Assembly (NCBI RefSeq): GCF_023555375.1 | Contig: NZ_JAJSEE010000001.1 | Coordinates: 186,001-250,000, forward strand | Length of the DNA: 64,000 nucleotides | Direction of reading: 5' to 3' | DNA from: Guyparkeria hydrothermalis | GTDB taxonomy: Bacteria > Pseudomonadota > Gammaproteobacteria > Halothiobacillales > Halothiobacillaceae | Shown here: one piece after another, positions 21,054 to 40,865 of the stretch | Numbering within the stretch: the first letter of the stretch is position 1 | How the letters are laid out: the number at the start of each line of letters is the position of its first letter | Position numbers and translations under genes: made by a program | Notes under the pieces: generated by a model | What the model was told of the DNA's origin: nothing | What the model saw: the letters and a program-made list of their open reading frames with translations, nothing else | Database searches by the model: none

Positions 21054-21731
21054 ATGAATCCCCGCACCCGCCGCGAGATGTTCGCCCGTTTCCAGCGCCA
21101 GCGACCCGAGCCGACCACCGAGCTCGAGTACCGCAGCCCCTTCGAGCTGCTGGTGGCGGTCGTACTCTCCGCCCAGGCGACCGACGCCGGCGTCAACAAG
21201 GCGACCCGCCCCCTGTTCGCCCGGGCCAACACGCCGCAGGCCGTCCTCGACCTGGGACTGGATGAGCTCACCGAGGCGATCCGCACCATCGGGCTGTACA
21301 AGACCAAGGCGAAGAACGTCTACGCCCTGTGCCAGCAGCTGATCGACAAGCACGATGGCGAGGTACCCGCCGACCGCGAGGCGCTCGAGGCGCTGCCCGG
21401 CGTGGGCCGAAAGACCGCCAATGTCGTGCTCAACACCGTATTCCGCCAGCCGACCATGGCGGTCGACACGCATATCTTCCGCGTCGCCAACCGCACCGGG
21501 CTGGCCAAGGGCAAGACGGTGCGCGCGGTCGAGGACCGACTCCTCAAGGTGATCCCCAGGGAATACCAGCTCGATGCCCACCACTGGCTGATCCTGCACG
21601 GGCGCTACGTGTGCAAGGCGCGGAAACCCGACTGCGGGGCCTGTATCGTCTGCGACCTGTGCGATTTCCGCGACAAGACCGAGGACTGCAGCCCCGAGCT
21701 GATCGCCCGCTACGCTACCGAAGAGATTTGA
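21054..21731 (+). CDS. nth: Endonuclease III
   Basis: Nth removes oxidised pyrimidines and cuts the abasic strand in base excision repair. The 225-residue protein has the helix-hairpin-helix LPGVGRKTANVVL with catalytic Lys120 and the catalytic Asp138 in AVDTHIFRV, the same numbering as E. coli Nth. The C-terminal [4Fe-4S] loop has cysteines in the C-X6-C-X2-C-X5-C arrangement, plus one extra cysteine inside the last interval (CIVCDLC). The ATG at 21054 lacks a strong ribosome binding site. The DUF1841 gene follows after two bases. Confidence 0.96.
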   Translation: MNPRTRREMFARFQRQRPEPTTELEYRSPFELLVAVVLSAQATDAGVNKATRPLFARANTPQAVLDLGLDELTEAIRTIGLYKTKAKNVYALCQQLIDKHDGEVPADREALEALPGVGRKTANVVLNTVFRQPTMAVDTHIFRVANRTGLAKGKTVRAVEDRLLKVIPREYQLDAHHWLILHGRYVCKARKPDCGACIVCDLCDFRDKTEDCSPELIARYATEEI

Positions 21732-21733
21732 GC

Positions 21734-22168
21734 ATGTACTCCAGTGACCGCCGCCGTATGCGCCAGCCGTTTCTCGATGCCTGGACCAAGGGAAAGCAGA
21801 AAAAGCCCCTGGCGCCGATCGAGCAGATGATCTTCGAGGTGATCCGCGATCATCCCGAATACCATTCGCTGCTCGACCAGCCCGAGTTCGCCCTGGAGGC
21901 CGACTGGCCGCCGGAGATGGGCGTGACCAACCCCTTCCTGCACATGAGCATGCACCTTTCCCTGCGCGAGATGGTGCAGACCGACCGCCCGGCCGGCATC
22001 CGCTCGGTGCACTCGGAACTGTCCCTGAAGAAGGCCGATCCGCTCGAGGCCGAACACGAGATGATCGATTGTCTCGGCGAGGCCCTCTGGCAGGCCCAGC
22101 AGAACGGCGGCCCGCCGGACGAGGTCAAGCTCATGGAATGCCTAAGGGAACTCTGCACGAGGCGATGA
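21734..22168 (+). CDS. DUF1841-family protein; 3' end formed by a repeat element
   Basis: The 144-residue protein matches the DUF1841 family of proteobacteria: RRRMRQPFLDAWTKGKQKKPLAPIEQMI, then VIRDHPEYHSLLD, TNPFLHMSMHLSLREM, and EHEMIDCLGEALWQAQ. Its role is unknown; it is soluble and probably cytoplasmic, and it is often found beside nth. The last seven codons (RELCTRR) and the stop lie inside the terminal repeat of the element that starts at 22144. The result still resembles the family ending (ECLR-hydrophobic), so the gene is probably functional. Confidence 0.85.
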   Translation: MYSSDRRRMRQPFLDAWTKGKQKKPLAPIEQMIFEVIRDHPEYHSLLDQPEFALEADWPPEMGVTNPFLHMSMHLSLREMVQTDRPAGIRSVHSELSLKKADPLEAEHEMIDCLGEALWQAQQNGGPPDEVKLMECLRELCTRR

Positions 22169-22484
22169 CGTCTCTGCGGGACCTCCAAGGGTCCGGATGC
22201 AAGGCGCCGTCCGCCGTGAAGGGCCGTGGCCCTTTACAAGGGCTGGACCGGATCGGCACGACGCCGATCCGGCCGGCGCGAGCCGGCCCGAAGGGCGGGG
22301 TTCACGGACGAACCCCGCGACGCCGCAGATGGGCCCTTGGAGGCCCGCCCGGATGGGGCTCGCGGGTTTTCCCGCACTCGGCGTTGCCGTCCCTCGACGG
22401 GCAACGAGCCCGTCTTCGCTCCGGCGCCTTGATTGCGAACAAACCCGCGAGCCAGAGATGCCATCGACTCGTGCAGACTTCCCT
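22144..22484 (+). mobile_element. 341-bp MITE-like element with long terminal inverted repeats (copy 1)
   Basis: The left end AAGGGAACTCTGCACGAGGC (22144 on) and the right end, read on the other strand, AGGGAAGTCTGCACGAGTCG (from 22484), form 32-bp terminal repeats with about 28 matches. Inside are two arms: GGGACCTCCAAGGG (22178-22191) pairs with CCCTTGGAGGCCC (22334-22346), and CTCGCGGGTTT (22359-22369) pairs with its complement at 22441-22451. A 75-bp block (22245-22319) is absent from the second copy at 39393-39662; outside it the two copies are about 90 percent identical by eye. There is no transposase or long credible ORF. The element follows the 3' end of a same-strand gene. Bases 22485-22607 up to the ATPase gene hold nothing I recognise beyond a GAGGT ribosome binding site. 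Confidence 0.8.
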
Positions 22485-22607
22485 GGGGGACAAGCTCAAG
22501 CGCTGACCCCGTGCACGCGGGTGACTGCGTCTGCCCGTGCATGAAATAGATTGAGGGTCTAGGCTCGAACGAGACAGCCGTCTCCCATCCATTCGAGGTA
22601 GGCCCCG

Positions 22608-38189: not shown

Positions 38190-38265
38190 TGGCGTCCCCA
38201 AGGGGATTCGAACCCCTGTTACCGCCGTGAAAGGGCGGTGTCCTAGGCCTCTAGACGATGGGGAC
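38190..38265 (-). tRNA. tRNA-Glu (anticodon TTC)
   Basis: The minus-strand sequence folds as a cloverleaf: acceptor GTCCCCA/TGGGGAC, anticodon stem CCGCC with loop CTTTCAC (anticodon TTC), and T-arm GGTTCGAATCC. The CCA end is encoded. It is the last tRNA of the operon and identical to the copy at 38361-38436. Confidence 0.96.
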
Positions 38266-38360
38266 CTAGTTGAAAGGTCGGAGCCTACCCGACCAATTGA
38301 TCACGTTTCAAGGTGACCAACAAGTAGGGCAGCACGCGTGACACGCACTGCCCGACCATA

Positions 38361-38436
38361 TGGCGTCCCCAAGGGGATTCGAACCCCTGTTACCGCCGTG
38401 AAAGGGCGGTGTCCTAGGCCTCTAGACGATGGGGAC
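38361..38436 (-). tRNA. tRNA-Glu (anticodon TTC), second identical copy
   Basis: This is the same 76-base sequence as the gene at 38190-38265, with encoded CCA and anticodon TTC. The 95 bases between the two copies contain no gene. Confidence 0.96.
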
Positions 38437-38441
38437 CTGAT

Positions 38442-38518
<77 letters not shown>

Positions 38519-38520
38519 TT

Positions 38521-38596
<76 letters not shown>

Positions 38597-39357: not shown

Positions 39358-39392
39358 GGGTTCTTCCTCTTCGTTTGGCTTGCTGGTGGTCT

Positions 39393-39662
39393 TGGGAAAT
39401 TCTGCACGATTCGATGGCATCTCTGGCTCGCGGGTTTGTTCGCAAGCAAGGCACCGGCCCGAAGGCGGGCTCATTGCCCGTCGAGGGGCGGCAACGCCGA
39501 GTGCGGTCAAACCCGCGACCCCCGTCCGGGCGGGCCTCCAAGGACCCATCTGCGGCGTTGCAGCCCTTGCAAAGGGCAACGGCCCTTCGCGGCGGACTGC
39601 GCCTTGCATCTGGGCCCTTGGAGGTCCCGCAGAGACGCCATCGAATCGTGCAGAGTTCCCTT
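39393..39662 (-). mobile_element. 270-bp MITE-like element with long terminal inverted repeats (copy 2)
   Basis: Read on the minus strand it begins AAGGGAACTCTGCACGATTC at 39662 and ends with the inverted copy at 39393; the 32-bp ends differ at only one or two positions plus one indel. It aligns end to end with the element at 22144-22484 at about 90 percent identity by eye, apart from a 75-bp block present only there. The two internal arms are conserved (GGGACCTCCAAGGG with CCTTGGAGG; TCGCGGGTTT with AAACCCGCGA). It fills the gap between the old yellow enzyme gene and the HbpS-like gene, both on the minus strand, lying 36 bases from each. No ORF in it is credible. Confidence 0.8.
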
Positions 39663-39697
39663 GGGCTCTGTCGGCCCATTTTTTATCTTGGACCGGC

Positions 39698-40795
39698 TTA
39701 CGCCTGGTCCAGGGTGGGGTAATCGATATACCCCTTCTCCCCTCCACCGTAGAAGGTCGAGGTGTCGGGTTCATTCAGCGGTGCATCGAGGCGGAAGCGC
39801 TCGACCAGGTCCGGGTTGGCGATAAACGGCACGCCGAAGGCCACGGCCGCGGCACGGCCTGCCTCGATATCCCTTTCGGCCCGGGCCTGGTCGTACTGGT
39901 AGTTGCGGATCACCGGACCCTCGAACAACGGCACCAGCTCGGCCAGGTCGAAGGCCGGGCCGGCATCGCCGGGCGCGTCCTCGCCCATCCCCGCGATGTG
40001 CAGGTAGGCCAGGCCGAAGGGGTTTAGCTCGCGCACCACGTAGGAGAAGGTGCCCCAGGGGTCGCTGTCGTGCATGCCGTTGAACGGTTGCAGCGGCGAG
40101 ATGCGTACCCCGGTGCGCTCGGCACCGGCCACGCGGATCACGGCCGCCAGCACCTCGCGCAGCAGCCGCATGCGGTTTTCCAGCGTTCCGCCGTAACGGT
40201 CCGTGCGCTTGTTGGTGCCGTCACGCAGGAACTCGTCGATGAGATAGCCGTTGGCCGCGTGCACCTCGACCCCGTCGAAACCGGCCGCCAGGGCGCGCTC
40301 GGTGGCGCGGGCGTAGGCCTCGACCAGCTCGGGGATCTCCTCGGTTTCCAGCGCGCGCGGGGTTTCGAAGGGCTTCTTCTCGCCGGAGGGGACGTAGCCT
40401 TCCCCGTCGATGGCGATCGCCGACGGCGCCACCGGCAGCTTGCCACCGGGCTGGAAGTCGGAGTGCGAGACGCGGCCGACGTGCCAGAGCTGGAGCACGA
40501 TGCGGCCGCCCTCGTCATGCACGGCCCGAGTGATCATCTCCCAACCGGCCTGCTGCTCGTCGCTGTGGATACCGGGCGTGGCCGGATACCCCTGCCCTTC
40601 GGGCACGACCTGGGTCGCCTCGCTGATGATCAGGCCGGCCCCGGCGCGCTGCCGGTAATAGGCGCGCATCATCTCGTTGGGGACGTTGCCCGGCACGGTC
40701 GCCCGGCAGCGGGTCAGCGGCGCCATGATGGCGCGGTTGGGCAGGGAAAGGGCCCCGAGGTTGACCGGGGTAAGCAATGCGGAATCCTGACTCAT
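39698..40795 (-). CDS. nemA: Old yellow enzyme-family alkene reductase (NemA-like)
   Basis: This FMN enzyme reduces activated double bonds and N-ethylmaleimide-type electrophiles with NAD(P)H. The 365-residue TIM barrel shows PLTRCRA near the N-terminus, GLIISEATQV, LQLWHVGRVSHSDFQPGG, and the catalytic-site segment FDGVEVHAANGYLIDEFLRD followed by RTDRYGGTLENRMRLL. The flavin phosphate region is FIANPDLVERFR. GAGGT lies five bases before the ATG at 40793-40795. A 14-bp palindrome at 40866-40879 may be an operator. Confidence 0.92.
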   Translation of the reverse strand: MSQDSALLTPVNLGALSLPNRAIMAPLTRCRATVPGNVPNEMMRAYYRQRAGAGLIISEATQVVPEGQGYPATPGIHSDEQQAGWEMITRAVHDEGGRIVLQLWHVGRVSHSDFQPGGKLPVAPSAIAIDGEGYVPSGEKKPFETPRALETEEIPELVEAYARATERALAAGFDGVEVHAANGYLIDEFLRDGTNKRTDRYGGTLENRMRLLREVLAAVIRVAGAERTGVRISPLQPFNGMHDSDPWGTFSYVVRELNPFGLAYLHIAGMGEDAPGDAGPAFDLAELVPLFEGPVIRNYQYDQARAERDIEAGRAAAVAFGVPFIANPDLVERFRLDAPLNEPDTSTFYGGGEKGYIDYPTLDQA

Positions 40796-40865
40796 GGAAC
40801 CTCGAACACGGTTGTTGTCGGGTGCCGAGCGTTCGATCCGGCCCGGCATCCGCTACGACAAGTTG

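Follow-up and report, generated by a model that had tools for sequence, protein, structure and literature searches.

The window, i.e. the whole stretch of 64,000 nucleotides of the genome of the sulfur-oxidising bacterium Guyparkeria hydrothermalis that was analysed, contains two non-coding units, one overlapping the end of a DUF1841 gene and the other located between a small open reading frame, whose start faces it, and an Oxidored_FMN gene that ends on its other side (Table 1). A preliminary description had reported units of 341 and 270 bp that share both ends and almost all of their internal sequence, carry inverted ends of 32 bp and lack a transposase. All of this was found as described, with slightly refined limits and with end repeats of about 30 bp when measured from the target duplication. 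The two units represent a single element, inserted in opposite orientations, and the 71 bp by which they differ in length correspond to a single extra block in an arm tip. Copy 1 is inserted about six codons before the DUF1841 stop codon and itself supplies a new one. Both copies fold strongly, with z-scores of -9.6 (copy 2, as DNA) and -12.1 (copy 1, as RNA) and not a single equally stable shuffled sequence, and the inverted ends and the pair of arms by far exceed what chance would give. The first arm of copy 1 scores low with the covariance model because the extra block interrupts its tip. Elsewhere in the window, four consecutive tRNA genes are ordinary.

Table 1. Positions in the window of both element copies, their parts and the neighbouring genes
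Feature	Position	Strand	Remark
DUF1841 gene	21329-22168		PF08897, E=1.9e-52
Copy 1, expanded form, 336 bp	22147-22482	-	limits measured between target duplications
Flanking 4-mers of copy 1	22143-22146 (TAAG, left); 22483-22486 (CTGG, right)		inexact
Copy 1, arm with conserved tip	22176-22273	+	covariance model R1, 24 bits
Copy 1, extra block of ~71 bp with three further hairpins	~22247-22317		sits within one arm tip
Copy 1, second arm, mirror-image	22355-22455	-	covariance model R1, 46.8 bits
Four consecutive tRNA genes	38193-38596	-	Rfam
Small open reading frame next to copy 2	starts at 39358	-	
Copy 2, standard form, 265 bp	39395-39659	+	limits measured between target duplications
Target duplication of copy 2 (CTTG)	39391-39394 (left); 39660-39663 (right)		exact
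Copy 2, left arm	39423-39523	+	tip motif sense on + strand; covariance model R1, 40.8 bits
Copy 2, right arm	39530-39630	-	tip motif sense on - strand; covariance model R1, 80.6 bits
Oxidored_FMN gene	39698-40849	-	

To count the copies, the host genome (2.43 Mb in 9 contigs) was searched by BLAST with the 270-bp sequence. The 87 matches obtained merge, after joining split and reverse matches, into about 40 places instead of the two initially noticed: 21 are near full length, about 8 have the expanded form and the others are partial or cut by a contig end. The arm covariance model picks up 80 arms in this genome. Relatives with inverted ends were found as well, the element being present in 10 of the 11 Guyparkeria genomes searched and in some genomes of a sister genus; Guyparkeria sp. 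SCN-R1 (record L189) carries the same element type, with a tip identical to one in relative G001. The expanded copies (that of the window and L030-L034, L038, L040 and L041) form a subfamily of about eight with a three-hairpin block of some 70 bp in one arm tip, as if the core tolerates insertions in the tip loop. Four contigs of the host genome (C4, C5, C8 and C9) start inside an element copy, and these repeats are therefore assembly break points. At C4:244123-244431 (L020), there are two element ends in back-to-back arrangement with a few bases in between, which suggests that one copy inserted next to or into another. In addition, palindromes of the GTAGGAGC type adjoin copy L018 (flanks C3:113310-114578) and the genome has three Y1_Tnp (RAYT-like) matches; an ordinary REP/RAYT system probably lives beside the element.

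The preliminary description had taken a non-autonomous mobile element as the simplest reading, and this is borne out by the copy number together with target duplications and empty orthologous sites. Exact 4-bp duplications flank 8 of the 14 copies inspected (CTAG, TTTA, and twice each TTAG, TTAA and CTTG), and the target is of a YTAR-like type in which CTAG, TTAG, CTAA and TTAA predominate. When the joined flanks of copies were compared with related genomes, continuous matches were obtained, so that insertion, and with it the polymorphism that had been proposed as a check, is proven by clean empty sites in relatives. The cleanest is that of the copy at C3:235749, for which the host reads CTTG-element-CTTG and relative G007 just one CTTG. 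Relative G001 lacks copy 1 of the window; its flanks are 97% identical in the search, and its empty site reads CTGA on the opposite strand. Since the flanking 4-mers of copy 1 match neither each other nor this empty site exactly, an exact duplication was either lost or never present. Identity between host copies is at most 97%, indicating that the burst of insertion is not very recent. Of 29 copies, 13 are within 12 bp of a stop codon that closes an open frame of 80 codons or more (about 14% expected), and the TAG or TAA within YTAR targets may be behind this proximity. The element thus has the characteristics of a MITE: terminal inverted repeats, no transposase gene, a length below ~600 bp, a target duplication, dispersed copies and insertion polymorphism.

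The two-armed fold was evaluated in an almost gap-free alignment of 76 arms, in which columns fixed by the search pattern were not counted as evidence. In this alignment, pairing is seen in 84.3% of the cells; in controls with the partner shifted by one to three columns, the figure is 31.7-41.6%. Changes on both sides affect 916 paired cells, compared with 186-275 in these controls. Independently, RNAalifold predicts 33 pairs, 27 of them with double changes. The conserved two-arm structure proposed earlier is hence backed by compensatory changes that are very strong and extend over dozens of element families, and complementary changes are found in the end repeats as well: the end-repeat pairs of the host genome contain 36 double Watson-Crick changes (18 distinct changes) and 0 double mismatches. 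Such paired changes could come from selection on pairing or from correction of one repeat from the other. The latter can be extended to the whole structure, by supposing that the compensatory changes are a mutational by-product of quasi-palindrome correction by template switching and that the core is functionless. In favour of this explanation, even copies that are ~95% identical differ by complementary paired changes in their end repeats, a pace faster than slow selection readily gives. However, it leaves unexplained why tip motifs and internal loops are conserved and fixed across unrelated families and phyla, and why the architecture is constant, and we consider it unlikely.

Among 42 arms, thinned to less than 75% identity, G·U mispairs outnumber A·C mispairs by 123 to 53, and the rows favour G·U by 24 to 6. 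In the lower stem the ratio is 89 to 45, falling to 55 to 42 when three columns are omitted; as most of the lower-stem excess sits in these columns, the indication that RNA or single-stranded DNA folds, rather than duplex DNA, is no more than suggestive. The G·U bias hints at a folded single strand. Together with the strong stem covariation and the conservation of the tips across phyla, it would also agree with a structured RNA gene or riboswitch-like element that happens to be present in many copies, its mobility being incidental. Target duplications and empty sites refute this as a full account, though, and ~40 dispersed copies with duplicate arms in mirror image are not expected of it either; moreover, the element has no Rfam match at the gathering threshold and nothing credible up to E=1. 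We therefore regard an RNA gene of this kind as improbable and retain it only as a possible function of the core of a mobile element.

The first lead to a wider family was a BLAST match of 50-70 bp in another family, the elements of which follow the same plan with different ends and stems; it is the arms, not the ends, that are common to other bacteria. The arm tips share the motif CAAGGCGC…AATGGC…CCCTT…GCAACGC. A search pattern of CAAGGCGC, AATGGC and GCAACRC at set spacings was found in 32 of 369 gammaproteobacterial genomes, belonging to 27 genera, and its reversed form, used as control, gave 0 matches. In a draw over the whole phylum it occurred in 9 of 398 genomes, several of them from one family outside the Gammaproteobacteria, and the motif is also present in Betaproteobacteria and a few Planctomycetes. 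A scan of named genomes yielded at least 116 stretches with the pattern, among others in Wenzhouxiangella, Chromatiales, Thiodiazotropha, Stutzerimonas, Azoarcus, Sedimenticola, Nitrosomonas and Psychromonas, with names taken from record titles, many of which are metagenome bins. As it relies on an exact pattern, this survey undercounts the elements and is biased to one tip sequence. Matches in Longimicrobiales and Phycisphaerales, at only 25-29 bits with the arm model, are among those that arose by chance. The planctomycete arms (L126, L195 and L200) have slightly longer tips and a different outer sequence (CTGAAAAGCGCAG...).

The elements are built from two hairpin arms that mirror each other, have conserved tips and lie within end repeats of ~31 bp. 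Complete elements mostly measure 240-285 bp and have CTAG-like flanks, CTAG being the commonest flanking 4-mer; others are longer, or are one-armed or shortened and measure 165-240 bp. In all 53 two-arm elements counted by hand, the arms are convergent, the first sense and the second antisense, mostly with gaps of 4-7 bp. Left and right end repeats of one element are 90% identical (median), whereas those of different elements are 29% identical, which is near chance. The elements are essentially chromosomal, judging by a yield of just 2 stretches with the motif in IMG/VR. BLAST of plasmids with the elements of other lineages and of phages with the window element gave a single short match (an Azotobacter plasmid), and 16 end repeats pooled into one query had no plasmid match at E<=1, with an estimated detection floor of ~24 identical bases.

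The ends of the Guyparkeria copies resemble those of known insertion sequences. An IS5-family element in record L289, flanked by CTAG, begins with GGAAGGTCTG, the ten bases with which the B-type Guyparkeria ends also start; both share TAGGGAAGGTCTG, and overall 17-18 of 25-26 positions agree. Guyparkeria-type ends thus combine a YTAR target and a 4-bp duplication, which are normal for IS5-type cut-and-paste, with the terminus GGAA..TCTG. In the host genome, no pair of ends (within 3 mismatches) lies farther apart than the element itself, so that no autonomous copy was found there, nor any transposase with the same ends as had been suggested as a search target; the IS5 assignment rests on the partial similarity of the ends and on the YTAR target, by which the terminal repeats appear to be of IS5 type. 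The families included in the search for a partner were PF01609, PF05598 and Y1_Tnp. Both PF01609 and PF05598 have 0 matches in the host genome and one match each in single relatives. Y1_Tnp is missing from four element-bearing genomes (G005, G015, G021 and G096), and several genomes that do encode it show no detected element; its presence does not track the element, which argues against HUH enzymes as the general mover. The same distribution bears on the possibility that the element is a REP/REPIN, i.e. a palindrome pair mobilised by a RAYT, or derives from an integron attC cassette. The paired inverted hairpins are superficially REPIN-like and their size is attC-like, but none of the 76 arms has attC-like R boxes (RYYYAAC/GTTRRRY) or a 5' GTAG, and such an origin is very improbable.

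In other lineages, similar end matches point to other insertion sequence families. The 35-bp end of one element agrees at 33 of 35 positions with that of an insertion sequence of the IS1634 family which the same genome carries; of this insertion sequence one end is known, the left one not being seen in the 200 bp before the gene, where the contig starts. The end of another element matches an IS5-family end in a different genome (22/24), and the ends of a third group match an end adjoining an IS1380-family transposase remnant, which scores 111.8 bits, below the curated cut-off of 180. Because the covariance model found no arm in the insertion sequences with matching ends, the core is not a fragment of those insertion sequences. 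Its occurrence between IS1634- or IS1380-like ends in other lineages shows that the core persists and the ends change. Two further candidates were set aside: the IS4-family transposase of L285 turned out to lie next to an element copy and is not its demonstrated partner, and an Oceanospirillaceae end (L152) resembles that of E. coli IS5 only in part, with 13 of 20 positions at the end compared, and was not used.

The ends are unrelated between families and yet paired over ~31 bp, the host genome yielded no IS5-type transposase, and each strand has one sense-oriented arm. This combination could be expected if the elements moved by an unconventional route that recognises structure, via single-stranded DNA or via an RNA copy, so that end sequence drifts while pairing and length are kept. 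Against such a route stand the ends that several families share with ordinary DDE insertion sequences, the target and duplication typical of IS5-type movement and the distribution of Y1_Tnp, and we judge it quite unlikely. The best explanation in our view, with a probability of about 0.7, is a superfamily of MITEs whose folded core is conserved and which different DDE transposases mobilise in trans. The Guyparkeria element is mobile and belongs to this common superfamily, and we infer that IS5-type enzymes moved its copies in trans. According to this model, Guyparkeria-type ends would be cut by an IS5-family DDE transposase encoded elsewhere and, as no partner transposase was found in the host genome, this partner has probably been lost or visits by transfer.

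The most speculative part of the model concerns the core, which might act as a folded single-stranded nucleic acid, most simply RNA. Because the arms are mirrored, transcription from either side meets the sense-oriented arm first; by this arm, the element might shield its ends from its neighbours' read-through transcripts, or stabilise or terminate these transcripts. Tentatively, we favour such a folded RNA or single strand acting on read-through over a duplex cruciform that helps to pull the ends together, or over no function at all. In its widest form, the hypothesis, which we consider possible but doubtful, holds that the core with its two arms works as a nucleic-acid module, either folded RNA or single-stranded DNA, by means of which a gene-less element can exploit one unrelated DDE transposase after another, its end repeats changing each time. 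The lineage would then be defined by structure and extend through the Proteobacteria and perhaps the Planctomycetes.

If the core is functional, it represents a widespread non-coding module that helps parasitic DNA to survive or move. The superfamily makes testable how gene-less elements outlast their partner transposases, and its tip provides a searchable signature for annotating this repeat class. An earlier description was not found in the open-access full-text literature, and to that extent the superfamily is apparently undescribed; a Guyparkeria pangenome paper mentions neither transposons nor MITEs (PMC9032823).

Among known systems, integron attC sites share with the arms a hairpin of ~60-100 nt in which bases of the internal loops are conserved and the stem sequence is free, but the arms lack the attC boxes, and the element inserts with a duplication at CTAG-like sites instead of by cassette integration. 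REPINs and BIMEs likewise have two inverted hairpins per unit, occur in many copies that are largely extragenic and depend on an enzyme encoded elsewhere; the present element differs by its long end repeats, its 4-bp duplication, its arms of ~100 nt, the missing GTAG tag and its independence of Y1_Tnp. ERIC, YPAL/RU-2, Correia/NEMIS and RUP are genus- or family-level repeats with conserved ends, whereas here the core is conserved over many families and the ends differ. With these small mobile sequences (reviewed in PMC2229807) the element has in common that it is short, palindromic, non-autonomous and foldable as RNA. IS5-family MITEs and insertion sequences have the same YTAR target, 4-bp duplication and GGAA..TCTG termini (as in L289), and the MITEs also the same absence of coding capacity. 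Unlike in these, the core is not an internal deletion of any insertion sequence found, no resident transposase was found in the host genome, and the core is common to elements with unrelated ends. MITEs are normally defined by their ends, the interior being the disposable remainder of a deleted insertion sequence; in the superfamily described here the reverse holds, the interior being conserved and covarying and the ends interchangeable.
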